A stretch of 35,294 bases of DNA from Oscillospiraceae bacterium (GTDB lineage Bacteria; Bacillota; Clostridia; Oscillospirales; Ruminococcaceae): NCBI GenBank assembly GCA_024404815.1, contig JAKSPL010000022.1, positions 1 through 35,294 on the forward strand, in the 5' to 3' direction. Shown one piece after another: positions 103 through 12,248 of the stretch. The first letter of the stretch is position 1. Each line of letters begins with the position of its first letter. The notes under the pieces were generated by a model. The model worked only from the letters and a program-made list of their open reading frames with translations. It ran no database searches and was not told where the DNA came from. The position numbers and the translations under genes were made by a program.

Positions 103-132
103 ATGGGAACACATGGTGTGTTCCCATTTTTT
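103..132 (+). terminator. Hairpin with T-run next to the feoB 3' end
   Basis: ATGGGAACAC (103-112) pairs with GTGTTCCCAT (118-127) around a five-base loop and is followed by a T-run on the plus strand. This is an intrinsic terminator for plus-strand transcription from outside the window. On the minus strand the same hairpin directly follows the feoB stop codon but lacks a good U-tract, so termination of feoB there is less certain. Confidence 0.55.
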
Positions 133-844
133 ATTTCAACAATATACAGAAAGCATGGATCAGCGTACAAAACAAAACACCGATACCTGTCGGCAGCAAA
201 AATGCGGCGAACGTCCATCGTCGGCTGCCTGTTTCCTTTCGTATCGTCAGAAGCGTAGTCGCACAGGGCGAATGAAACAGCGTAAATACAAGATAACAGA
301 CCGCTGTACAGACAGTCCAGCCGTTGTCAGTCAGGATCCGTGCAAGTGTTCCCAGAGAACTGTAATCCGTCAGCTGTCCTGCACCCAGATAGGCAGTCAC
401 CGCCACAGGCAGCACGATCTCATTCGCAGGCAGTCCGAGGATAAATGCCAGCAGCATCGTGCCGTCCAGTCCAATCAGCGTGCCGAATCCCGAAAACAGT
501 TCTGCAGCAATTTGCAGAACCGTACAACCGTCCGCCCGCCAATTCGCCATGCACCAAATCAAGATGCCAACAGGCGCAGCTGTCAGAACCGACCGTCCCA
601 ACACAAAAATTGTTCGGTCAAGCAGAGAACGGACAATGACTTTTCCATACTGCGGTCTGCGGTACGGCGGCAGTTCCAGCACAAACGGCGACGGTTCTCC
701 GCGCAAAATCGTTCGCCCAAGAACCCACGATACCGCAAAAGTCATCCCTACACTCAGACAGATCAGCAGCGTCAGCATTCCTGCCGCTTGCAGCGAGGAA
801 AACGGCCCGTGCGCAAAGAATATCGTAACGATTGCCAGAAGTGA
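131..844 (-). CDS. feoB: FeoAB ferrous iron transporter, C-terminal part (split gene)
   Basis: This is the C-terminal third of a FeoB-type Fe(II) membrane transporter, about 237 codons without its own start. The frame opens with SLLAIVTIFFAHGP, runs through several hydrophobic helices and the second gate half (GMLTLLICLSVG, FILGLPANEIVLP), and ends with the family-typical FHSPCATTLLTIRKETGS and a last membrane helix. The N-terminal part lies at 4285-5889 on the same strand. Joining codon 4287-4285 to codon 844-842 puts the two parts in one frame with no lost or duplicated residue (NGRFP|SLLAI). An internal ATG at 778 exists, but a stand-alone C-terminal fragment would lack the G domain and half the gate. 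As it stands the transporter should be inactive unless the element at 845-4292 is excised. Family assignment is strong; reversibility is inference. Confidence 0.88.
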   Translation of the reverse strand, partial: SLLAIVTIFFAHGPFSSLQAAGMLTLLICLSVGMTFAVSWVLGRTILRGEPSPFVLELPPYRRPQYGKVIVRSLLDRTIFVLGRSVLTAAPVGILIWCMANWRADGCTVLQIAAELFSGFGTLIGLDGTMLLAFILGLPANEIVLPVAVTAYLGAGQLTDYSSLGTLARILTDNGWTVCTAVCYLVFTLFHSPCATTLLTIRKETGSRRWTFAAFLLPTGIGVLFCTLIHAFCILLK

Positions 845-867
845 CGGAAATCCGCCGCGCTTGGGAA
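845..867. repeat. attR-like junction: 8-bp core plus palindromic arm
   Basis: The core CGGAAATC (845-852) is shared exactly with 4285-4292. The element side continues as the 17-bp arm TCCGCCGCGCTTGGGAA (851-867), which is the reverse complement of the arm at 4272-4288 with one mismatch. The recombinase stop codon (868-870) starts at the very next base. The feoB side (844 and lower) is coding. This is what a serine-recombinase hybrid attachment site should look like. Confidence 0.85.
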
Positions 868-2103
868 CTATCTGCTGCGGAGTGTCAGGCGGAGCGAATC
901 ACCGTCCCATTCGGCTTTTTCCACGCAGATTTGCAGCAATGCGCGGCGGTCGGATTCCCCTGCCGCCCGAACCACTGCTGAAAATCCCATCGCATCACAG
1001 ACAGCCTTCCATGTCGCCGCATCCGCCTTATTTCCGTTCAAATTCGCGCAGATACAGGATTTTTGCCGTGCTTTTCGTTTGCAGATATAGTCGAATTGTC
1101 CGTTCCTGCCGTTGCGAAATTTACAAAACATTTCACCGCCGCAGATTCCACAGCGGAGTATCTGTTGAAGCAATCCGCTGAGACCCAGTCCGCTTCGTTT
1201 TGAAAATCCAAGCTGATACTGGATTTCTGCATACTCTTTTCCTGAAATCAGCGCAGGATGCAGTCCGCGTGTCACAAGCGGCTCTGCGGCTCCGCTGTTC
1301 GGACGTTTTCCAAATGCAAGCATTCCGCATTCTTCCGCTTCACACGGCGAAAAGGCGATTTTCCAGCCTTGTGACTGCAAGAATCTCGCGGCATCTGCAT
1401 CGGCAGCGGCGTAAACGGGATTGCGAAGAATACAGCGGAGATACCGCGCAGAAAACGGTTTTCCTGTTCTGCTGCGGAAATTTGTAACAGCTTTCTCCGT
1501 TTGTTCGACATCTCGGAATGCACGAAACAGCGAAAAAATCATTCTGACCGTTTCCTGTTCCTCCGCATCGGGGAACAGTACGGAATACGGGTGCGGCGGC
1601 GGCATTCTCCGAATCCGAAAGCCATACGGCGGCGGACCGCCAAGCCACCTGCCGTCTGCGGCAAGGGTGTACATATTGTCGCGGACACGCTCCGCCAGCG
1701 TTTCTCGCTCCAACTGTGAGAACACCGATGCAATATACAGCATTGCCCGTCCCATCGGCTTTGCCGTATCAAATTCCTCGCTCGCACACAGAAAATCTAC
1801 GTGGAATCTTGAAAATTCCTCCATCAGCGCGGTAAAATCCGCAACACTCCGACTGATCCTGTCCAGTCGATAGCAAACCACACACGAGATCAGCCTTGCC
1901 CGTACATCTCCCAGAAGCCGCTGCATGGCAGGCCGCTGCATCGCTGCGCCCGAAAAGCCCTCATCCTGATATATCCACGCATCTGCTGCTATTTCTGCGC
2001 TGCGATGCGCTGCAAGATACCCTCGACAAATCGCCAACTGACTCTGCATGGACTCGCCACGCTGCGTGCTGACTGATTTTCGGCAATAGATCGCTGCATA
2101 CAT
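868..2103 (-). CDS. Large serine recombinase (site-specific integrase)
   Basis: The 411-residue protein has an N-terminal resolvase catalytic domain (about 1-145) with the nucleophile motif YCRKS (Ser10), then QDEGFSG, YRLDRISRS and the helix QLERETLAERVRDNM. A recombinase domain follows (PPYGFRI, RCILRNPVY), then a zinc ribbon at about 316-355 (CGICGG ... CKRKARQKSCIC). Only about 58 residues follow the ribbon, so it is short for a large serine integrase. The start is ATG 2103 because AAAGGAGGG sits 7 bases upstream; the upstream in-frame ATG (2124) lies before that ribosome site. It should catalyse integration and excision between attB in feoB and attP. Its gene ends one base from the left attachment arm. 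The ribosome site lies in one arm of an inverted repeat (2107-2148), suggesting translational control. Confidence 0.92.
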   Translation of the reverse strand: MYAAIYCRKSVSTQRGESMQSQLAICRGYLAAHRSAEIAADAWIYQDEGFSGAAMQRPAMQRLLGDVRARLISCVVCYRLDRISRSVADFTALMEEFSRFHVDFLCASEEFDTAKPMGRAMLYIASVFSQLERETLAERVRDNMYTLAADGRWLGGPPPYGFRIRRMPPPHPYSVLFPDAEEQETVRMIFSLFRAFRDVEQTEKAVTNFRSRTGKPFSARYLRCILRNPVYAAADADAARFLQSQGWKIAFSPCEAEECGMLAFGKRPNSGAAEPLVTRGLHPALISGKEYAEIQYQLGFSKRSGLGLSGLLQQILRCGICGGEMFCKFRNGRNGQFDYICKRKARQKSCICANLNGNKADAATWKAVCDAMGFSAVVRAAGESDRRALLQICVEKAEWDGDSLRLTLRSR

Positions 2104-2106
2104 GAA

Positions 2107-2148
2107 ATGCCCTCCTTTTCGCATAGAATCCTATGGAAAGGAGGGCAT
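2107..2148. repeat. Inverted repeat enclosing two opposed ribosome sites
   Basis: The arms ATGCCCTCCTTT (2107-2118) and AAAGGAGGGCAT (2137-2148) are exactly complementary, and CATAG/CTATG (2122-2126, 2131-2135) extends the stem inwards. Read on the minus strand, the 3' arm contains the Shine-Dalgarno of the recombinase. Read on the plus strand, the other arm is an equally good Shine-Dalgarno 7 bases before an ATG at 2153. In a read-through transcript the stem would hide the recombinase ribosome site. There is no T-run, so it is not a typical terminator. Confidence 0.75.
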
Positions 2149-2152
2149 GGTT

Positions 2153-2380
2153 ATGCAGAAAACACGTAATATTTCTGTTTGCGTTTCGTGGGATTCGGAG
2201 CATCCTGTCTGTCAGAGCGCATTGGATGCTCTGCTCAGCAGTCTTTGCGGCAAACAAGCAATCCAAACGCAAGCTCCGTCGTCAGAGAATCCATTGCCGC
2301 CAGCTTTGCCGCATCCGCAGGAGCAGTTTTCCGCACATATGGTGTCATCGCAAACAGATTTTGAAGCGCAGAACCCTTGA
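2153..2380 (+). CDS. Possible small ORF divergent from the recombinase
   Basis: A 75-codon plus-strand frame starts at an ATG placed 7 bases after AGGAGGG in the inverted repeat. It begins MQKTRNISVCVSWDSEHPVC. No family is recognised. The last 146 bases lie antisense over the 3' end of the methyltransferase gene, and the second half (Gln/Pro/Ser-rich) looks like a shadow of that gene. Only the strong ribosome site and the position next to the recombinase, where a recombination directionality factor might be expected, argue for it. It could equally be a chance frame created by the palindrome. Confidence 0.25.
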   Translation: MQKTRNISVCVSWDSEHPVCQSALDALLSSLCGKQAIQTQAPSSENPLPPALPHPQEQFSAHMVSSQTDFEAQNP

Positions 2381-3056
2381 CTGTTACCGTTGTTTCGATG
2401 CGGCGGACCGATTCCAGCGTGAAGCCGTCGGGAGCATCCAGTACGGGACGGTTTTCATACGGCTGTGGATAAACCGCTTCTTTCAGCTGCCAGAGATGCC
2501 GTTCCAACGGGATCGCTTTCAGCAAAATGCCGTTTGGTGCGAGAACTCTCGCAAATTCTGCCGCTTCGACAGGCGCAAACAGATTCAGAAGCATCTCACA
2601 TTCCCCGTCAGCAAGTGGAAGATGATTGATTGATGCCACCGCCCACTCCATATCGGTAACGCCCATTTTTTTCGTGCGGTTCGCCGCAAAACGGAGCGCA
2701 TCAGCAGAAATATCAAATCCACAGAATGACGCAGACACGCCGTTTTTATGGAGCATATCGACCAGTTGACAGGAATACCATCCCTCACCGCAGCCGATAT
2801 CGGCAAGTGTCCGCGGACGGTACTCCATCAACACCTCGGAAAGTCCGTCCAGCAGCGGCTGATAAAAACCTGCATCGAGGAAATCACGCCGCGCAGCCAC
2901 CATTGCAGGGTCATCGCCGCGCAGACGGTGACTCTGCCGCTGAAGCAGATTGACATACCCCGATTTTGCACGGTCAAAGCTGTGTCCGTTGATACAGCAA
3001 TATCGCTGCGGTTCCGCTTCCAGCGGCTGTCCGCAGACAGGACAACGCAGTTTCAT
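2235..3056 (-). CDS. rlmA: RlmA-type 23S rRNA (guanine) methyltransferase
   Basis: The 273-residue protein matches the RlmA family in length and layout. It has an N-terminal zinc-binding module (CPVC at 5-8, then Cys21 and His25 in CCINGHSFD), the family motif SGYVNLL, and a Rossmann SAM-binding domain with LADIGCGEGWYS (about 84-95). It ends with TPY near residue 235 and a short C-terminal strand. RlmA enzymes methylate N1 of G745 or G748 in 23S rRNA helix 35, next to the macrolide/tylosin exit-tunnel site. The E. coli (G745) and actinobacterial (G748) types differ, and the sequence alone does not settle the target base. ATG 3056 has GAGGGG upstream. It follows the CDF exporter by 15 bases, so the two are probably co-transcribed cargo. 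A drug-tolerance benefit is possible but unproven. Confidence 0.85.
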   Translation of the reverse strand: MKLRCPVCGQPLEAEPQRYCCINGHSFDRAKSGYVNLLQRQSHRLRGDDPAMVAARRDFLDAGFYQPLLDGLSEVLMEYRPRTLADIGCGEGWYSCQLVDMLHKNGVSASFCGFDISADALRFAANRTKKMGVTDMEWAVASINHLPLADGECEMLLNLFAPVEAAEFARVLAPNGILLKAIPLERHLWQLKEAVYPQPYENRPVLDAPDGFTLESVRRIETTVTVKGSALQNLFAMTPYVRKTAPADAAKLAAMDSLTTELAFGLLVCRKDC

Positions 3057-3071
3057 TTTGTTCTTCCCCTC

Positions 3072-4238
3072 TCAGGCATATGCCTTGTCGATTTTTACAA
3101 CCGCAAAACAATGCGGAAATCTCGATTCGATGCGTGTCTGTATCTCATTCAGCAGTTCTTCATCCGTCAGGCGAAACGCGAACGGTACAACCGCGTCAAA
3201 GATCAGATTGGTATGTGTCGGTCCCTGCACCATGCGGAAATCGTGGATGGTAATGACCTCGTCAATGTCACGCAGTTCCTCTGCCACAGCATGACGCATT
3301 GCGGAAATCGCCGCGTCATCCACCGCGATCGGATCCATATGTATCACCGCTTCACACTTGAAATGGTCTGCCAGTTCGCGCTCCACGTTGTCGATGGCAT
3401 CGTGAAGAACGTAAATATCCTCATCGCCCGAAACCTCTGCGTGCAGCGAGATCATCATGCGTCCGGGTCCGTAGTCATGCACCACAAGGTCATGCATTCC
3501 GACAACCTCATCGTGCGCCATGACCAGCGTTTCGATCTCGTCCACCAGTTCTTTGGTCGGAGGCTGTCCGAGCAGCGGAGAAATCGTATCTTTTGCAGCT
3601 TCTACGCCCGTTTTGAGAATCAATACCGACACGAAAATACCGCAGATACCGTCTATTTTCAGCCCTGTGTAAACCGTCACGAGCGTACAGAGCAGTACCA
3701 CCAGCGTTGAAACCGCATCGCTTCGGCTGTCCGCAGCTGTCGCTTCCATAGCAGCAGAGTCGATTTTCTTCGCAGTTGCGTGGTTGTAGATATACATATA
3801 CAGCTTGACCAGAATGGAGATCACCAGAATGACCATTACCACCCAGCCGCCCGTCACTTCTTCGGGGTGCAGCAGCTTTTTGACGGAAGAAATGCCCAGA
3901 TCTGCGCCCATCCAGAGAATCAGCATCGACACGGCAAGCCCTGCAAGATATTCGATGCGTCCGTGTCCGAAGGGATGTTCGGGATCGGGTGCTTTGCCTG
4001 CAAACCAGAAACCAAGCAGCGTGATCAGCGAAGATGCCGCATCGGACAGGTTGTTGAGGGCATCTGCCGTAATTGCGATCGAGCCGCTGACTGTACCTGC
4101 GAAAAATTTCACTCCGCAAAGCAGAATGTTCAGCACGATGCCCACCACCGAGCAGAGAATGCCATACCCTTTCCGCACATTGGCATCGTGGTATTGCGTA
4201 TGGTTCGGAATCAAGCGTTTTGCGAGTAATTCTATCAT
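3072..4238 (-). CDS. CDF-family divalent metal exporter, Mn-type site
   Basis: The 388-residue membrane protein has six predicted helices and a cytoplasmic C-terminal domain typical of cation diffusion facilitators. These proteins export Zn, Mn, Fe or Co in exchange for protons as dimers. The family signature DALNNLSDA is in TM2 and DSRSDAVST in TM5. The transport-site positions read Asn-x3-Asp in TM2 and Asp-x3-Asp in TM5. This combination is associated with the bacterial manganese exporter group (MntE-like) rather than the His-containing zinc type; substrate choice is inference. The start is taken at MIELLAKRL (4238), after AGAGG; the longer frame to 4310 runs into the attachment arm and feoB. 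It is the first gene inside the element, 47 bases from the core, and could be transcribed from the feoAB promoter. Confidence 0.9.
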   Translation of the reverse strand: MIELLAKRLIPNHTQYHDANVRKGYGILCSVVGIVLNILLCGVKFFAGTVSGSIAITADALNNLSDAASSLITLLGFWFAGKAPDPEHPFGHGRIEYLAGLAVSMLILWMGADLGISSVKKLLHPEEVTGGWVVMVILVISILVKLYMYIYNHATAKKIDSAAMEATAADSRSDAVSTLVVLLCTLVTVYTGLKIDGICGIFVSVLILKTGVEAAKDTISPLLGQPPTKELVDEIETLVMAHDEVVGMHDLVVHDYGPGRMMISLHAEVSGDEDIYVLHDAIDNVERELADHFKCEAVIHMDPIAVDDAAISAMRHAVAEELRDIDEVITIHDFRMVQGPTHTNLIFDAVVPFAFRLTDEELLNEIQTRIESRFPHCFAVVKIDKAYA

Positions 4239-4271
4239 AATCTTTATCTTGTCCTCTCTGAAATGTTCCTG

Positions 4272-4292
4272 TTCCCAAACGCGGCGGAAATC
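4272..4292. repeat. attL-like junction: palindromic arm plus 8-bp core
   Basis: The arm TTCCCAAACGCGGCGGA (4272-4288) overlaps the core CGGAAATC (4285-4292), after which feoB coding sequence resumes. With the arm at 851-867 it forms the two halves of a palindromic attP separated by AA. The unoccupied host site rebuilt from the flanks is GTGACGGAAATC joined to TGCCGTTAC, itself weakly dyadic (GTGACGG / CCGTTAC). Confidence 0.85.
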
Positions 4293-5889
4293 TGCCGTTA
4301 CAGGGAACAAGTGCGTTAGTCAAAATGGCGATCAGCCGTTCGCGGCGGCTGTCGATAATACGGCTTTCTGTCACGCCCACCGCGTTGCAGCCAAAACCCA
4401 TCGCCATCGTCAGCGACTGCTTTCCGCAGGCACGGCAGGAAGCAAAACAGCGGTCTGTATTCATCGCAATGCGCGGCAAGATCCCTGCATCCTCCATGAG
4501 TGTGAACAGCGGAAAGAAAATTGCCATCGGCGGCAGCATGACCGAGATCACCCATGCCGTACCGCGCAGTCCGCCGTCAATCAGCGCACCCGACAGAATC
4601 GGCGGAATGTGCAGTACTTCTGCGGCATACGCAAGGCTGTCACACAGCTTCATCAACAGGTGTGACAGCCATTCTGACGGATAATTTGCCCCGATGATCG
4701 TGATCCAGAACACCGCCGTCAGCATCAGAAGCATCAGCGGTATCCCAAATTTTCGGCTTGTCACAATACGGTCGATCGCCCTGTCGCGTGCAGAAGCATC
4801 GGGCGGTACGGAAACCGTTTCCCCTGCAAGCTGTTCTGCCTGCATCACGACCGCCGCACGGCAGACAGAATGCAGCTGTTCTTTCGAAATGTTCGCGGCT
4901 GAAAGCTGTTCTTTTGCGATTTGCAAAGCGTCTTGTACCTTTTCGGAACTCAGACACATGGCAGCCGCTTCTCCGCAGACGGATATGTCCTCCGACAAAA
5001 GCTTTTGCGCCAGCCAACGCGAAGAAAGCATCGCGTGCGGCGGCAGATACTCTCTGATTGCGTCCGTCAGCGGCCTCAGCGCACGCTCCACCGCGATCGG
5101 ATAGCGTACAAGCGGTGCTGTTTCTTGTTTTTCCGTTGTATCACAGATTGCCATTGCCGCATCGGTCAGCGCGGAGAGCGTTTTCTTTTTTCGTGCCTGT
5201 GTCCCGACCACGGGAATCCCAAGCCGTTCGGAAAGCTGTTCCAGATCGACCGAAATGCCGCGTGATTCCGCCTCATCCATCAGGTTGACACACAGCACGG
5301 CGCGGCGGTGCATGGCAAGAAGTTCCAGCACAAGAATCAGTCCCCGTTCCAGCGTTGTCGCATCGCAGACACAGATCACACAATCATGCGGTGTCTGACA
5401 AACTGCGTCCGCGGCAGCACGCTCCTCTGCGGTCTGCGAATCCAGAGCGTAAGTACCGGGGGTGTCCAGCAGCGTGACCTTTTGTCCGCGCCGAAAAAAT
5501 GTCCCCTTTGCGCTGACAACAGTTTTGCCGCACCAGTTTCCCGTATGCTGTTTCATCCCTGTCAGAGCGTTAAATACCGTACTTTTCCCGACATTCGGAT
5601 TTCCGACTAGCAAAATGGTTCGTTCCTGCGTTGAATGTTCAGGCGGCAGAGAAGGACTCTTTTCTACGGTAATCTGCCGCAGATCGCGTTCCCGCAGTGC
5701 GATCGTCACACCGCGCACCGAAAATGCCGCCATACCGCCTTTTCTGCCGCGCAGGACACATTCAGCTTCCGTATCGGGAATCAGCCCGAACTGTGCAAGT
5801 CTTGCGGACTGCTTGGGAGATGCGGAAATTTCGATCACACGGCCGCGCTCTCCGACAGACAGATCCGCCAGACACAAATGTTGTTCCAT
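4285..5889 (-). CDS. feoB: FeoA-FeoB fusion, N-terminal part (split gene)
   Basis: This is the first 535 codons of a ferrous-iron transporter. A FeoA-like SH3 domain spans residues 1-75 (SVGERGRVI, LAQFGLIPDT). It is fused to a FeoB GTPase domain with P-loop GNPNVGKS (96-103), switch II DTPG and the NLMD guanine-specificity motif, then a helical spacer and the first membrane gate region (FGIPLMLLMLT, MGFGCNAVGVTESRI). The break falls in the second helix group of the gate, after CNGRFP. In the integrated state the frame does not stop at the junction but reads on for 258 codons to 3508, out of frame over the CDF gene, giving a 793-residue product with a meaningless tail. ATG 5889 has AAGGGTGAG upstream. 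Fusion of FeoA to FeoB is known in Firmicutes. See 131-844 for the remainder. Confidence 0.9.
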
Positions 5890-5978: not shown

Positions 5979-8168
5979 TCAGACACGCTTGCGGTACTGT
6001 CCGGGCGTCATGCCGACAACCTTCTGGAACTGCCGCAGAAAATAGTTATAGTCCTCATAGCCGCAGGCTTCTGCCACACTCGCAATACTCATTGCGGAGG
6101 TCGCAAGCAGAGAAACCGCTTTGGAAATACGGGCATTTATCACATCCTGATGGAAGCTGATACCGAACAGATCCTTGTAGATCTGACGGAAATAGCCTGC
6201 GCTGAACGAATATGCCTTACAAATATCATCCGCGTGTACATTGTAATCCTGATAGAGTCTTGCGCGGATTGCAAACAATGTATCCGCATGGGGCATCTGC
6301 CGCTGAACGGATAGATTTTCCATTTCTGCGTTGATTTTCTGCTGGATAAGGCTCACCACTTCTGCCGCGGAGATATTTTCAGGAATCTCCGTACAGCCGC
6401 AGACGACAGCATCCAAACCGAAATATTCCAACAGTTTCGACTGATGGAACAGCAGGTACAGAAGCTTTTCACGTTTCTTTTCATATTCCGCAGATTCAGA
6501 TGTACCGACACCCACACAGACAAATGTCTGCGTATCCAGTCGGGCACACATACCGTTCTCAGGCGAGATCATTTGCAGGAGTTCTGCAATTTTCTGATAA
6601 AACGAGATATTCTGTTCCTGCATCTCCGCGCTGGTCATGGAACGAAATACACCAATGCGGAGAAATACTGCATAAAGCGGTGCTTTTTTCTCGGCAAGAC
6701 GACCTGTCAGAACTCGTTCAAAACCGTTTTTGCTGTATAGTCCCGTCAGAGAATCCTTTTGTTCGGACAAATTCTGGCAGGAAAGCAGATACCGAATATC
6801 ATTTTTCATGCAGAGGAATTCCAGACCGTTGGAAAGCGATTTCATCCAGTTTCGGAAAATGTCGTCATAGGTATCGGGCGTATTGTATTGCAGAACATAA
6901 TACCCGAACAGCTTCTGCTCAAAAAACACAGGAAGATAATACTGCACTACGGCAAAATCCGCAGAGGAAAGCAGTGCAGAGAAAGAATACTTTCCTGTCG
7001 TGATCGGCTGTTTCGTCTGATTCCACGGCATGATGCTGCGGCAGGTCATCAAATCGCCCGTTCCTGTCGAATGGTTGTCATACCAGTTATCATACAGGCA
7101 GAGGTACATATCCTGTACCCAGCGCACAAGAAACTGATGCGTCCCCAGCACATTGATAAATTCTTCTAGTGTACTGCATCGGGTAAGCTGCTGTTCGGTG
7201 GTGCTGAGCACATTCCATTTATCAAACTGCTGCTTGACACGGATGGATTTGAGTTCTGTATTCATCTGTTTCATGTTGACGCCGCAGGTACAGCTTTCGC
7301 CTGCGATCCATTGTCCGTGCGGCGGCGGATAGTCATCGGGTTCTTCACCGTTGCAGAGTGCAAACAGCATCCGCACCGCAGTTTCGCCCAGCGCAATGCG
7401 TCCGCGCTGATACGTCGAAAGCAGCGGAGAATGATAGATCCGCTCGTGAATATACTCGTAGCCGATGACCATCATATCATCCGGCACGCGAATACCGCCG
7501 TCCAGCAGAGTATCCAGCACGCCGTATGCCATATAATCGTTGGCACAAATCAGTGCTTCTGGCAGCGGCAGTTCGCCGGAGATGTATCGTTTGGCGTGTG
7601 CTTCGCCCGAAGTTGTCCAGTAATTGCCGTAAAATTCTCTGGAGCTGTCCGGTTCGATGCCGTTGTCCTTCAAAGCCTTGCGATAGCCTTCCAGCCGTCG
7701 CTGCGCGGATTCATTGTCCTTCGGACCGGTCAGAATGTCGATTTTTTTGAGGTGGTGGACCTGTACAAGATGTCTGGTCACCTCCTCAATGTCAGAATCA
7801 TCCGACGCATTGATAAACCGTACATTCGGAAAGGCAAATTCTTTAATATATATACCTATTACAATCACAGGAATATCTTGTCTTTGCTGTAAAAAACTAA
7901 TCACCTTTTTTTGTACGTGCTTACCCACAAAAGACTCCGCAATCAGGATGATTCCGCAGAGTTCGGGCGACAAAGCCAATTCGTAAATTTCATTTTCCAA
8001 AGCTAATTGTTCGTCAAATTCGTAAGGATTATAAATATTTGACAGTACAACTGTATGGAAATCGTAAGCTTGTGCCCTGGTAATGATGCCCTTCATTATC
8101 TGCCGCTGTTCAATGCCGTTCACCTCAGCGGCAACAACGCCGATGATTTTTCGCATTTTCTGAAGCAT
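5979..8168 (-). CDS. AraC-family regulator with LacI-type sensor and GGDEF-like middle
   Basis: The 729-residue cytoplasmic regulator has three parts. Residues about 8-300 form a LacI/periplasmic-binding-protein sugar-sensor fold (IGVVAAEVNG, PEALICANDYMAYGVLDTL, MMVIGYEYI) without the LacI helix-turn-helix. A central region contains SLTGLYSKNGFERVL, typical of GGDEF proteins, but the signature itself has become RLDTQTFVCVG, so cyclase activity is not expected. The last 100 residues are an AraC DNA-binding domain (ICKAYSFSAGYFRQIYKDLFG, VAEACGYEDYNYFLRQFQKVVGMTPGQYRK). This resembles E. coli XylR (LacI-type sensor plus AraC domain) with an added middle region. ATG 8168 has AAAGGAGG upstream; the earlier ATG precedes that site. 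It is divergent from the xylanase gene, so control of that gene by a xylan-derived sugar is a reasonable inference. Confidence 0.88.
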   Translation of the reverse strand: MLQKMRKIIGVVAAEVNGIEQRQIMKGIITRAQAYDFHTVVLSNIYNPYEFDEQLALENEIYELALSPELCGIILIAESFVGKHVQKKVISFLQQRQDIPVIVIGIYIKEFAFPNVRFINASDDSDIEEVTRHLVQVHHLKKIDILTGPKDNESAQRRLEGYRKALKDNGIEPDSSREFYGNYWTTSGEAHAKRYISGELPLPEALICANDYMAYGVLDTLLDGGIRVPDDMMVIGYEYIHERIYHSPLLSTYQRGRIALGETAVRMLFALCNGEEPDDYPPPHGQWIAGESCTCGVNMKQMNTELKSIRVKQQFDKWNVLSTTEQQLTRCSTLEEFINVLGTHQFLVRWVQDMYLCLYDNWYDNHSTGTGDLMTCRSIMPWNQTKQPITTGKYSFSALLSSADFAVVQYYLPVFFEQKLFGYYVLQYNTPDTYDDIFRNWMKSLSNGLEFLCMKNDIRYLLSCQNLSEQKDSLTGLYSKNGFERVLTGRLAEKKAPLYAVFLRIGVFRSMTSAEMQEQNISFYQKIAELLQMISPENGMCARLDTQTFVCVGVGTSESAEYEKKREKLLYLLFHQSKLLEYFGLDAVVCGCTEIPENISAAEVVSLIQQKINAEMENLSVQRQMPHADTLFAIRARLYQDYNVHADDICKAYSFSAGYFRQIYKDLFGISFHQDVINARISKAVSLLATSAMSIASVAEACGYEDYNYFLRQFQKVVGMTPGQYRKRV

Positions 8169-8225
8169 GGAAACGCCTCCTTTGTTCATTTCTGACAGCG
8201 GTAACCCCTATTTTTCTCTATTACT

Positions 8226-8326: not shown

Positions 8327-8456
8327 ATAAGTGAAGTGTAGCATTTCTGCCAAATATCGTCGGAAATGTGCATTGATTTTCAAGCCTGTATCCGCTGAAT
8401 TATCCGAAGAAAAAACTTGCGGATACGCCAAAAAAACCACTTGGGGGGAACCGAAT

Positions 8457-11400
8457 ATGAGGAAAAGACGACTCACGGCGGGGTTGACCGCCATCGCCTG
8501 TTCCGCTGCGATGCTGACTGTGGTTCCAATGAACCTGTCCGTACAAGCGGCAGAACTGGTGAACAACACGTTCGAGGAGGAGTACGAAGGCTGGATCGGT
8601 AACGCCGACTCAGTTGTACTGTCCGCCGAGGAAAACATGGGCTATAAGGGCTCACGCGGTATGCTCGTTTCCGATCGAAGCACATCCGCAGACGGTGCCT
8701 GCTCCTACAAGGGATTCTATCTTGTAGGCGGTCAGACCAACTCTTATAGTGCTATGGTCTATGCGGAAACCGATCAGGTCTTCCGCATGAGCATCGCTGT
8801 CACCGACGAGGAGACCGAAGAAACAACCGTTACAGAACTTGTTTCCAAGGCAGTCAAGGGCGGCAAATGGACAGAGCTTTCTGCGGACTATAAAGCTCCC
8901 GCAGGCAGCTACGACTTCAAGATCACCATTACAACTGACAGCACTGACGATTTCTATTTCGACAATGTTGTAGTTACAGGTGACAAACCTGTCTGCACAG
9001 CATCTGCGGCAGACATGGGTCTGAAGAATATGTTCGGCAAGTATTTCCGTGTCGGCAACATTCTGAACGGCTCGACCATCCGCAACAGCAGCATTACCGC
9101 GAACATCCTGAAGGATTGCAGCTCCGTTGAGTGTGAAAACGAAACGAAGCCTGACGCAACGATGGATCAGTACAAGTCCAGCGGCAACAACATCGCAGTC
9201 AAGCTCGACAGCTGTGCAGCGATCATGGACTTCTGCTCCAAGAACGGCATCGGCATGAGAGGTCATACACTGGTATGGCACTCCCAGACACCGACATGGG
9301 CGTTCAAGCAGAACTTTGATGCCAACGGCAGCTGGGTAAACTCTTCTACGATGGATGCCCGTATGGAAAGCTACATCAAAAATCTGTTTGCAGCTGTCCA
9401 GTCACAGTATCCGAACCTTGACCTCTACGCTTATGACGTCTGCAACGAGTGTATCTCCGATGACTCCAACCGTACTTCCAACGGCAAGGACGGTGCAAGA
9501 GAAGGCGGCGTCGGCGACGGAAAATCTCCGTGGGTTCAGGTCTACGGAAACAACTCCTTTATTGAGAAGGCATTCACCTATGCAAGACAGTATGCACCGA
9601 AGGGCTGCAAACTGTTCTACAACGATTACAACGAATACTGGGATCACAAGCGCGACTGCATTTACAATATGTGCAAGAACCTCTACAACAAGGGTGTCCT
9701 TGACGGTGTCGGTATGCAGTCCCACATCAACGCTGACTGGAACGGCTTCTCCGGTATGTCCGCATACGAAACCGCAATGAGAAAGTACGCTTCCATCGGC
9801 TGCGAAGTTCAGGCAACTGAGCTTGACATCTCCGTTGAAAGCGGCAAATATTCCGATTACGACCAGGCTAAGAAGTATGAAGCGATCTTCAAGCTTGGCA
9901 TGGAGATCCCGAACGTCACCGCAATCTGCATCTGGGGACCGAACGATGCAAACTCCTGGCTCAGCTCCGGCTCCAATGCACTGCTTTACAACTCCAACAA
10001 CCAGCCGAAGACCGCATACAACACCCTGACACAAGTCGTTTCTCAGAGCGATTGGCTCTCCGACGATGCAATGTGGTCTTCCGTCAGAGGTTCTTCTTAT
10101 GAAGCACCTTCCTATGACGCTGACGAAAACGGCTACTTCTTCCACACCACATTTGAAAACGGTGCGGAATCCTGGACAAACCGCGGCAACTGTTCCACGG
10201 CAGTTTCCAGCAGCGCAGCACTCCAGGGCAGCAAGTCCATTTACGTATCCGACCGTACCGAAGCATGGATGGGCACCTGCCTCTCCCTCTCCCCAGCATT
10301 CAAGGCAGGCGAAACCTACAGCTTCAGCTCCAACGTCATGTATGACGAGGGCAGCACGACTGATACCTTCTATATGAAGATACAGTACACCGATGCCAGC
10401 GGCGAGACCCAGTACGACGGCATCGCAGAAGCTTCCGCGATCAAGGGCGAATGGGTACAGCTTGCAAACACCGCATACACCATTCCGAGCGGTGCTTCCG
10501 ACATTCAGCTCTACCTCGAAACCGCTGAATCCACCGTCAGCTTCTACGCTGATGAGATCATCGGTGCAGAAAAAGGCACTACCATCAACGGACCGAAGCC
10601 GAAGAAAGTGCTTCTCGGCGACGTTGACTGCGACGGCGTGCTGACAGCATCCGACCTCTCGCTGCTGAAACGCGGCATCCTCACCGGCAAGTACGACAAC
10701 TCTGTTGCCAAAGTCAATGCTGACGTTGACCAGAGCTACGAAATCGACGAAAAAGACGCAGAATATCTGCACCAGTTCCTTATGACGAAGATTACTGAAT
10801 TCCCTGTTGCGGAACGCAAGGTTGACTTCACCGCAATGGCACAGAAATTCTCCGGACTCTCGCTGGAAGAAAGCTGGAAGAAGGCAGGCGAAAACAACTC
10901 GCTCTACACCCAGCGTTTCGGCGCAGACCCCGGCTGGATGGTTTACAAAGACAGACTGTATGTCTACACCACCAACGACGCATACGAATACAAGAACGGT
11001 CAGATTCAGGAGAACTCCTATGACGTTCGTACTCTGAACTGCGTTTCGTCCGCTGACCTTGTCAACTGGACCGACCACGGCGCGATCCCTGTCGCAGGCA
11101 ACGGCGCAGGCTCCGCTCCGAACGGCGCACAGTGGGCATCCAAATGGGCATCCCGTTCCTGGGCTCCTGACGCTTGCTGGAAGACCATCAACGGCAAGGA
11201 CAAGTTCTTCCTCTACTTCGCAAACAACGGCTCGGGTATCGGCGTTCTGACTGCTGACAGCCCGACAGGTCCTTGGACCGATCCGCTCGGCCACGAGCTG
11301 ATCTCCAGAAATACCCCGAACTGCTCCAATGTTGAATGGCTCTTTGACCCCGGCGTTTATGTTGACGAAGCTACCGGTACCGGTTACCTGAACTTCGGCG

Positions 11401-12248
11401 GCGGCGTTCCGAGCGGCAAGGAATCTGACCCCGGCACCGGCCGTATCGTTCAGCTCGGCGATGACATGATCTCTATCGTCGGCACTCCGACCACCACTCA
11501 TCCGCCTTATCTGTTTGAGGACTCCAGCCTTATTAAGATCGATGGCACTTGGTACTATTCCTTCTGCCATAACTGGAACGTACCGGGCGGTCAGGCATTC
11601 CGCAACGCAGATATCGGCTACATGACCTCCAGCAGCCCGCTCGGACCGTACACCTATCAGGGTGTCGTCTTCAAGAACACCGGCGATCAGGGTCTTGATA
11701 AGGGCGGCAACAACCACCACTCTGTTGTAGCATTCAAGGGCAAGTATTACGTCCTTTACCACACTCGTGCGATCGAACTCCGTATGGGTACCAACCTGAA
11801 CTACCGCTCGCCGTCCATCGACGTATGTAACTACTCGAACGGCAAACTTTCGTGCAGCGGCTCGATGAAGGGCGTTTCTCAGATTGAAAGCCTCGATCCG
11901 TTCACCAAGGTTCAGGCGGAAACCATGGCAAGCCAGTCCAAGGGCATCTCTGTTACAGGTCTTTACGATACCGTTGTCAACGGTAAGAAGGGCAGCTGGA
12001 CAAAGGTCGCAGGCGTTGACTGCGGCAGCGGTGTCCGCAATGTGACCATGAGAGCTTCTTCCGCAAAGGGCGCAGTCATCCGCATTACCACAGGTTCTAC
12101 CACCGGTACTGCTGTCAGCTACATCGAAATTCCGGCTGGCGGACAGATGACTGAGATCACCGTTCCTGTTCTCGGACTCTCCGGCAACAACGACCTCTAC
12201 TTCAGCTTCAGCGATGAAGCAACCCTCGATTACTGGGTATTCTCTTAA
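8457..12248 (+). CDS. Secreted xylanase CBM22-GH10-CBM22-dockerin-GH43-CBM6
   Basis: The 1,263-residue enzyme breaks down (arabino)xylan. A signal peptide spans 1-31 (cleavage after VQA). A CBM22 follows (about 33-175), then GH10 endo-xylanase (185-560) with HTLVWHSQTP, acid/base Glu331 in DVCNECI and nucleophile Glu455 in TELDIS. A second CBM22 spans about 585-715. A type I dockerin at 720-780 has two calcium-loop repeats (GDVDCDGVLTASDLSLLKR and ADVDQSYEIDEKDAEYL). A GH43 domain (810-1140) has candidate catalytic residues Asp824, Asp964 and Glu1021 and probably acts as arabinofuranosidase or xylosidase. The C-terminal CBM6 starts near 1148 (VQAETMA). The dockerin sits in the middle, so the protein is plugged into a cellulosome scaffoldin with a catalytic arm on each side. 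The start at 8457 follows TTGGGGGGAAC and gives a proper signal peptide. Codon use looks strongly biased, as in highly expressed genes. Confidence 0.93.
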   Translation: MRKRRLTAGLTAIACSAAMLTVVPMNLSVQAAELVNNTFEEEYEGWIGNADSVVLSAEENMGYKGSRGMLVSDRSTSADGACSYKGFYLVGGQTNSYSAMVYAETDQVFRMSIAVTDEETEETTVTELVSKAVKGGKWTELSADYKAPAGSYDFKITITTDSTDDFYFDNVVVTGDKPVCTASAADMGLKNMFGKYFRVGNILNGSTIRNSSITANILKDCSSVECENETKPDATMDQYKSSGNNIAVKLDSCAAIMDFCSKNGIGMRGHTLVWHSQTPTWAFKQNFDANGSWVNSSTMDARMESYIKNLFAAVQSQYPNLDLYAYDVCNECISDDSNRTSNGKDGAREGGVGDGKSPWVQVYGNNSFIEKAFTYARQYAPKGCKLFYNDYNEYWDHKRDCIYNMCKNLYNKGVLDGVGMQSHINADWNGFSGMSAYETAMRKYASIGCEVQATELDISVESGKYSDYDQAKKYEAIFKLGMEIPNVTAICIWGPNDANSWLSSGSNALLYNSNNQPKTAYNTLTQVVSQSDWLSDDAMWSSVRGSSYEAPSYDADENGYFFHTTFENGAESWTNRGNCSTAVSSSAALQGSKSIYVSDRTEAWMGTCLSLSPAFKAGETYSFSSNVMYDEGSTTDTFYMKIQYTDASGETQYDGIAEASAIKGEWVQLANTAYTIPSGASDIQLYLETAESTVSFYADEIIGAEKGTTINGPKPKKVLLGDVDCDGVLTASDLSLLKRGILTGKYDNSVAKVNADVDQSYEIDEKDAEYLHQFLMTKITEFPVAERKVDFTAMAQKFSGLSLEESWKKAGENNSLYTQRFGADPGWMVYKDRLYVYTTNDAYEYKNGQIQENSYDVRTLNCVSSADLVNWTDHGAIPVAGNGAGSAPNGAQWASKWASRSWAPDACWKTINGKDKFFLYFANNGSGIGVLTADSPTGPWTDPLGHELISRNTPNCSNVEWLFDPGVYVDEATGTGYLNFGGGVPSGKESDPGTGRIVQLGDDMISIVGTPTTTHPPYLFEDSSLIKIDGTWYYSFCHNWNVPGGQAFRNADIGYMTSSSPLGPYTYQGVVFKNTGDQGLDKGGNNHHSVVAFKGKYYVLYHTRAIELRMGTNLNYRSPSIDVCNYSNGKLSCSGSMKGVSQIESLDPFTKVQAETMASQSKGISVTGLYDTVVNGKKGSWTKVAGVDCGSGVRNVTMRASSAKGAVIRITTGSTTGTAVSYIEIPAGGQMTEITVPVLGLSGNNDLYFSFSDEATLDYWVFS

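Follow-up and report, generated by a model that had tools for sequence, protein, structure and literature searches.

A 35,294-nt stretch of DNA from an Oscillospiraceae bacterium (GenBank assembly GCA_024404815.1, contig JAKSPL010000022.1), called the window below, carries a feoA-feoB ferrous-iron transporter gene cut in two by a 3,440-bp element that encodes a large serine recombinase (LSR), a cation diffusion facilitator (CDF), and the RNA methyltransferase RlmA. Taking the explanation as a whole, we consider it probable that this is an inherited gene-splitting element, excised by a recombinase that has lost its one-way control, and that the split is reversible. If this is correct, then a feoB-targeting serine-integrase element would have entered feoB in the ancestor of the clade to which the window genome belongs and become a fixed gene-splitting element of three or four genes. 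While the element is in place, FeoB would be truncated within the first of its membrane (Gate) halves, and the genes of the metal exporter, RlmA, and the recombinase would follow the feo start in the same direction. The recombinase would cut at the TT of a Phe codon, the element would leave as a circle, and a 772-codon feoA-feoB would be restored. With the coiled-coil segment of the recombinase gone and the arms of the element spaced like those of an attB site, recombination would no longer run one way only, and the split would become a switch-like state. We infer excision in cells, its reversibility, its independence from a directionality factor, and any link to iron from the comparison of genomes described here.

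The split gene and its junctions

The initial annotation of this stretch had described feoA-feoB as split in frame around an 8-bp core, and this is confirmed to the base: the core, CGGAAATC, occurs at 845-852 and 4285-4292, 3,440 bp apart, and joining the flanks at the core gives a single open frame of 772 codons (...NALVPCNGRFPSLLAI...). As in skin- and gin-type elements, the host gene is interrupted by way of a short direct repeat, and its frame is whole again when the parts are joined. FeoA, the G domain, the two Gate halves, and FeoB_C are all present across the two parts, and TIGR00437 is matched by each part below its whole-protein cut-off, as would be the case for partial proteins. The ends of the element look excisable, as had also been proposed; brought together as the joint of a circle, they form a near-perfect palindrome that matches at 17 of 21 positions, with the TT of a Phe codon at its center, which, together with the recurrence of the arrangement in three other genomes, speaks against chance.

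The CDF, rlmA, and LSR genes all lie on the feo strand between the junctions, and the space there is taken up by them and a small open reading frame (ORF), with no structural, replication, or conjugation genes of a prophage or an integrative and conjugative element. A phage origin of the window element was considered and rejected, since a search with a single protein as query, which reaches close relatives only, found no related locus in viral contigs; the best-ranked phage integrase is 36% identical to the window recombinase, and 872 phage records have some match.

A single insertion inherited by four species

In a sample of 30 genomes of the genus, feoB is split at the same codon, the Phe codon of the motif NGR-F-P, in four (the window genome, G000, and G258, G257, and G251), with the same gene order, cdf-rlmA-recombinase, and the same orientation. 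The site is uninterrupted in 20 of the 30, and this type of feoB is missing from 6 at the limit used; G263 has lost its 5' end at a contig end, and G253 has CT for TT at the crossover. An assembly artefact, which the initial annotation had named as a way in which its claim could fail, is very unlikely given that three further genomes share the arrangement, and we reject it since all four agree. That annotation had also pointed to relatives that might carry the same three genes elsewhere with no intact feoAB at the locus; none was found among the genus genomes, where the three genes occur together in four genomes and always inside feoB. The intact feoB that it proposed to look for is present at this locus: four congeners with an uninterrupted gene (G250, G262, G268, and G259) have nspC immediately ahead of feoB, as do split G257 and G251, so that both states share one ancestral locus. 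In the window and G258, the gene upstream of feo is that of a LacI/AraC-type regulator instead of nspC, and the fetched stretches of intact G260, G246, and G256 do not contain nspC.

A midpoint-rooted MutS2 tree of 29 genomes (G268, which has no MutS2 match, is outside it) places the four split species and G108 on one side of a branch supported at 100/99. A FeoB tree built from 24 rows groups the four split FeoBs in a single clade (100/100) and resolves them, as the MutS2 tree does, into (G000,G258) and (G257,G251). Identity among the four elements is 66-83% for cdf and 48-66% for the recombinase. The simplest reading of these relationships would be a single insertion before the four species diverged, inherited since. 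G108, the sister of G251/G257 in the MutS2 tree, has no match to this feoB, CDF, or rlmA at the limits used, which is consistent with loss of the whole locus in that species.

The initial annotation had offered recent insertion or regular excision as the reason why the halves are intact. In the first case, a mobile element would have inserted recently or several times over, and the halves would be intact for want of time to decay. Repeated insertion does happen in the family, since the same codon is occupied in other genera by other elements with other cargo. For this clade, we reject a recent insertion and consider the scenario very improbable, as the four elements combine an identical gene order with strong divergence and the split FeoBs form one clade that tracks the inner branching of the hosts. 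Regular excision, the other half of that proposal, we infer to hold. In a separate observation on the FeoB sequences, 13 of the 20 intact frames are 684-694 aa long and skip ~75-95 residues of a cytosolic helical region that is present in the split FeoBs and in G250.

Constraint on both halves of feoB

Both halves of feoB and the recombinase are under purifying selection and evolve at the rate of intact feoB. Between the window and G258, the ratio of nonsynonymous to synonymous differences per site (pN/pS) is 0.35 for the 5' part, 0.34 for the 3' part, 0.34 for the recombinase, 0.14 for the CDF gene, and 0.21 for rlmA. Across the six pairs of split genomes, it is 0.34-0.55 for the feoB parts and 0.34-0.51 for the recombinase, and in 12 intact feoB pairs, hand-picked out of 20 genomes, it is 0.11-0.51, all of these values being rough because synonymous sites are near saturation. 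The initial annotation had noted the lack of stops in the two parts, and this is borne out: the split halves contain 0, where neutral evolution along a single lineage since the window and G258 diverged would give a mean of 10.7 and, in 1,000 draws, a minimum of 2. The ratio of FeoB to MutS2 divergence has a median of 2.29 in split pairs (1.87-2.76, n=6) and 2.40 in intact pairs (1.47-9.33, n=134), in a comparison made without G254 (long branch), G263 (cut at a contig end), G268 (no MutS2), and pairs with MutS2 identity of at least 0.97, and in which the intact FeoB rows are whole open frames, some with extra residues upstream. With both halves constrained and free of stops, excision probably restores FeoB at a frequency high enough for selection to act on it.

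Constraint on both halves would also be explained, and without any excision, if FeoB worked as two polypeptides, with the split permanent and the recombinase a relic or kept for another role. In each of the other three species, some potential start for the 3' part exists ahead of the junction, and an ATG located eight codons ahead of it is common to G257 and G251. In the window, however, the open frame of the 3' part, which opens 16 codons ahead of the junction, offers neither ATG nor GTG nor TTG as far as codon +24, and the four 3' parts have no start codon in common, yet 17 codons ahead of codon +24 are constrained across the four species (mean pN 0.34, pS 0.80, 6 pairs). A separate 3' half therefore explains the window poorly, and rejoining fits it. 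The cut also falls inside a Gate domain, the recombinase is itself constrained, and the arms of the element match within genomes, and we regard a permanently two-part FeoB as unlikely.

A recombinase without its coiled-coil segment

The window recombinase has the domains by which LSRs are recognized, a Resolvase catalytic domain with the catalytic Ser and Arg, a Recombinase domain, and a zinc ribbon, and residues Y13, R15, S17, D88, R89, and R92 and cysteines C325, C328, C348, and C357 are invariant in 10 aligned sequences. Its likelier start is an ATG with AAAAGGAGG ahead of it, which gives an ORF at 868-2103. The four clade recombinases are 418-423 aa long compared with 493-610 aa in 31 distinct others that were measured; further shorter LSR open frames among the matches are 245-458 aa, some of them at contig ends. 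In an alignment of 21 sequences, the segment from the zinc ribbon to the last strand spans 36-39 residues in all four clade members and 77-174 in 17 relatives (133-142 in 13 of them). Judged by alignment position, this is the place of the coiled-coil in LSRs, and the segment is gone in all four, with the last strand (W[DN]G) retained. It is shortened in three relatives, to 110 residues in L006 (G195), 116 in L007 (G119), and 77 in L010, and in L009 (G100) it is 174 residues long with 29 prolines.

The arms of the element have changed as well. Opposite arms of an element resemble each other within genomes in an arm-shuffling test on 10 elements at the NGR-F-P codon (site A) from ten genomes, a set outside which G131, G050, G195, and L037 lie: the summed opposite-arm match of the 10 elements is 135, the shuffled mean is 95.2, and 0 of 20,000 shuffles are as high. 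Within feoB itself, on the 5' side, the distance from the crossover to an outer motif, GTTNCC, is 18 bp in 10 of 10 cases. Read off this 6-letter motif, the spacing in related elements is 23-24 bp in 18 of 18 arms (ten elements, G195, G119, and G100 among them), and in the clade it is 18-19 bp in 7 of 8 arms, including a weak match in G258 (3 of 5 letters); the single exception is one G257 arm at 23 bp. Both window arms have GTTCCC, read inward in the right arm, 18 bp from the crossover TT. The right arm may have been shortened separately in G251 (19) and in G000/G258 (18).

In attB, the zinc-domain motifs lie 5 bp nearer the center than in attP, and the coiled-coil is modeled as exploiting this 5-bp shift, favoring attP × attB and inhibiting attL × attR (Rutherford et al., PMC3783163). 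An LI integrase without its coiled-coil has similar activity on both pairs of sites (Chen et al., PMC10754689). In most of the clade arms, the motif is not ~5 bp further out as attP would have it, and both elements of one-way control appear to be gone. Since the segment is lost and the arms are attB-like, recombination would be expected to be no longer one-way and the split to be reversible. The loss of the segment and the change in spacing share one ancestry and hence are not independent confirmations, apart from the right arm and its possible separate shortening.

Reversible switch, directed excision, or relic

A bolder version of this reading, which we put forward tentatively and regard as somewhat doubtful, is that an LSR that shed its coiled-coil and attP-type spacing became a reversible, factor-free switch. 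If so, then this lineage would toggle between FeoB-on and FeoB-off states, with a metal exporter at the feo locus, in what would amount to a long-inherited phase variation of iron transport.

Several observations weigh against the main explanation, reversible excision. None of the 4 split assemblies contains a joined site, although assemblers would hide an excised form anyway. The window genome has a second, divergent, intact feoB, a point to be added to the initial annotation, and the split copy may therefore be unimportant for iron; inspection by eye recognized no iron box upstream of feo. Taken alone, the arms of the four species give 58 in their own pairing, which is not the highest of the 24 permutations (48 to 60), in a test that does not discriminate because these arms are alike, and the arms of G257 are poorly palindromic (10/21 and, in the arm test, 8/20). 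The shortened segments of G195 and G119 and the proline-rich one of G100 go with wide arm spacing, so the losses are not strictly coupled, and an altered segment is not by itself enough to shift the arms. Recombination by the phiC31 integrase is abolished without its coiled-coil (Chen et al., PMC10754689), and by this precedent the clade enzyme could be impaired. Finally, a divergent 75-aa ORF inside the element could be a directionality factor, at odds with a factor-free switch.

The phiC31 precedent, the poor palindrome in G257, and the lack of matches in G108, a member of the same clade, would all suit a decaying remnant in which the recombinase became inactive after losing its coiled-coil and feoB is in the course of being lost. 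FeoB is nonetheless stop-free and unaccelerated in four species despite near-saturated synonymous sites, and the catalytic residues of the recombinase are invariant, and we consider decay quite unlikely.

Excision could instead be under the control of a directionality factor, as with CD1234 of the Clostridioides difficile skin element and GirX of the Bacillus cereus gin element, with the recombinase alone remaining one-way. The candidate is the 75-aa ORF (2153-2380, + strand), also overlooked by the initial annotation, which could encode a directionality factor or a regulator or be open by chance; our idea that the element has no room for such a factor was abandoned because this ORF is present. 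A divergent ORF of 70-81 aa with a strong Shine-Dalgarno sequence is found in all four split species, where the ORFs form one cluster, and some related recombinases, though not all, are also adjoined by small ORFs on the opposite strand. Known factors are of similar size, CD1234 having 72 aa (PMC5025042) and GirX 42 aa (PMC5595907). However, the coiled-coil segment at issue (PMC5814800) is missing from the clade recombinase, no Pfam or PHROG family matches the 75-aa ORF, and the clustering may merely reflect rlmA read backwards, the first 26-32 codons alone being clear of rlmA. In this free part, pN/pS is 0.47 between the window and G258, where the other two frames are at ~1, but ~1 between G257 and G251, in an ungapped comparison. 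Control by such a factor is in our view possible but not likely, and excision by a recombinase freed of one-way control is the reading that we prefer.

feoB as a repeated target in the family

feoB is a repeated target of LSR elements in this family. In a sample of 247 genomes, a base-level check places a split at the NGR-F-P codon in at least 8 other genomes (G225, G100, G116, G228, G129, G119, G131, and G050). The elements with both ends on one contig range from 3.8 kb (G100) to ~34 kb (G228), and they differ in cargo, examples of which, named by eye from the ORFs, are a malate dehydrogenase-like and malic-enzyme-like pair and ABC transporters. A second split site in feoB, with the motif CGK.(S/A)LTM/CMGFGCN, lies ~38 codons upstream of the first and is used in 7 more genomes (G091, G005, G114, G165, G161, G067, and G218; L130-L134, L143-L146, L149, and L150), where recombinase matches on the fetched stretches are only ~21-38% identical to that of the window. 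What makes the window clade special is that one streamlined element has been retained together with an altered recombinase.

In G195 (L157, L137), feoB seems to be split at both sites, the 5' part ending at the second site and the 3' part starting at the Phe codon of the first. Some LSR match occurs in 24 of the 30 genomes of the genus, mostly 32-38% identical to that of the window. The window genome itself has a second LSR gene, of 484 aa, near an mreB-like gene recognized by eye (G000:C35; L206 6023-7474, +); that it could be the recombinase of a sigK-skin element was rejected, as no sigK was recognized by eye among its neighbors.

Relation to known gene-splitting systems

Among the closest known systems, the gin element in gerE of B. 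cereus ATCC10987 (PMC5595907) is likewise not a phage, has serine recombination, and interrupts its host gene, which can be rejoined in frame, at a repeat of similar length (9 bp in gin). It differs in having three recombinase genes, the 42-aa GirX, and excision in sporulation, whereas the feoB element has one recombinase without the coiled-coil segment, sits in a metal-transport gene, and has no known developmental trigger. The skin element in sigK of C. difficile (PMC5025042) also has an LSR beside the split gene, which is rebuilt by excision, but it comprises 19 genes, with the 72-aa CD1234, a recombinase whose coiled-coil is present, and excision in the mother cell, and the feoB element has 3-4 genes in a gene outside sporulation. 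Of the NCBIfam models, XisF, from the cyanobacterial fdxN element (PMC4874684), scores best for the window LSR, at 102 with a cut-off of 375, and the window LSR is therefore not an XisF; the main text of that paper on cyanobacterial interruption elements contains neither "feo" nor "ferrous". Listeria LI/A118-type integrases (PMC3783163, PMC10754689) share the catalytic, recombinase, and zinc-ribbon domains and the paired half-sites around a 2-bp crossover, and they differ from the clade recombinase in the coiled-coil segment, which the latter lacks, and in that most arms of the clade elements have attB-like spacing.

The initial annotation knew of no feoB-splitting element, and no account of feoB as an integration site turned up in the literature covered, outside which many subscription papers and bioRxiv lie; in passages on feoB from three papers, it figures as prophage or island cargo or as an expression target.

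Programmed gene splitting is familiar mainly from genes of sporulation and heterocysts; with a metal transporter that has been inherited in split form for a long time, it would reach nutrient uptake in gut bacteria as well. The clade may also serve as a natural test of how serine integrases stay one-way, since the coiled-coil segment is gone and little of the attP/attB asymmetry is left, and its recombinase could yield a compact, reversible tool. For annotation, the implication is one of caution, since an apparently "broken" feoB in a gut genome may still work.

Features of the window and its surroundings

The features of the split locus are collected in Table 1. The window assembly consists of 59 contigs and is 84% complete.

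Table 1. Coordinates of the split feoA-feoB gene, its junctions, and the genes of the element in the window
Feature	Coordinates	Strand	Remarks
feoA-feoB 5' part	4285..5889	-	Pfam FeoA, FeoB_N, FeoB_Cyto, Gate; ends within the Phe codon of NGR-F-P, at the crossover
Junction, feoB 5' side	4271..4292	-	Core 4285-4292; crossover TT 4290-4289; right arm of the element
CDF (metal efflux)	3072..4238	-	Pfam PF01545 and PF16916; NCBIfam superfamily TIGR01297 above cut-off
rlmA, RlmA-type 23S rRNA (guanine-N1) methyltransferase	2235..3056	-	PF21302; NF008300 below cut-off
75-aa ORF	2153..2380	+	Divergent, strong Shine-Dalgarno, overlaps the rlmA 3' end; candidate directionality factor or regulator
LSR	868..2124	-	PF00239, PF07508, PF13408 above cut-off; coiled-coil segment missing
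Junction, feoB 3' side	845..868	-	Core 845-852; crossover TT 850-849; left arm of the element
feoB 3' part	131..852	-	Pfam FeoB_C and Gate on 131-778; rest of Gate

The metal handled by the CDF protein is less clear than its family, as every listed NCBIfam equivalog model falls below its cut-off. Its second motif, by eye, is DxxxD, a manganese-type pattern, but the NCBIfam models do not support manganese, FieF scoring above MntE with both below cut-off.

Upstream of feoA, a GCATATGCTGA-like motif is found in all four split species (GCATATCCTAA in G258). The regulator encoded directly upstream of feoA in the window (5979-8189, - strand; 736 aa), which is also present in G258, combines a LacI-type sensor part with an AraC-type DNA-binding end. 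Beyond it, at 8331-12248 (+ strand), lies the gene of a large, secreted-looking xylanase-type protein with dockerin-like repeats, recognized by eye, which fits a fiber-degrading gut bacterium.

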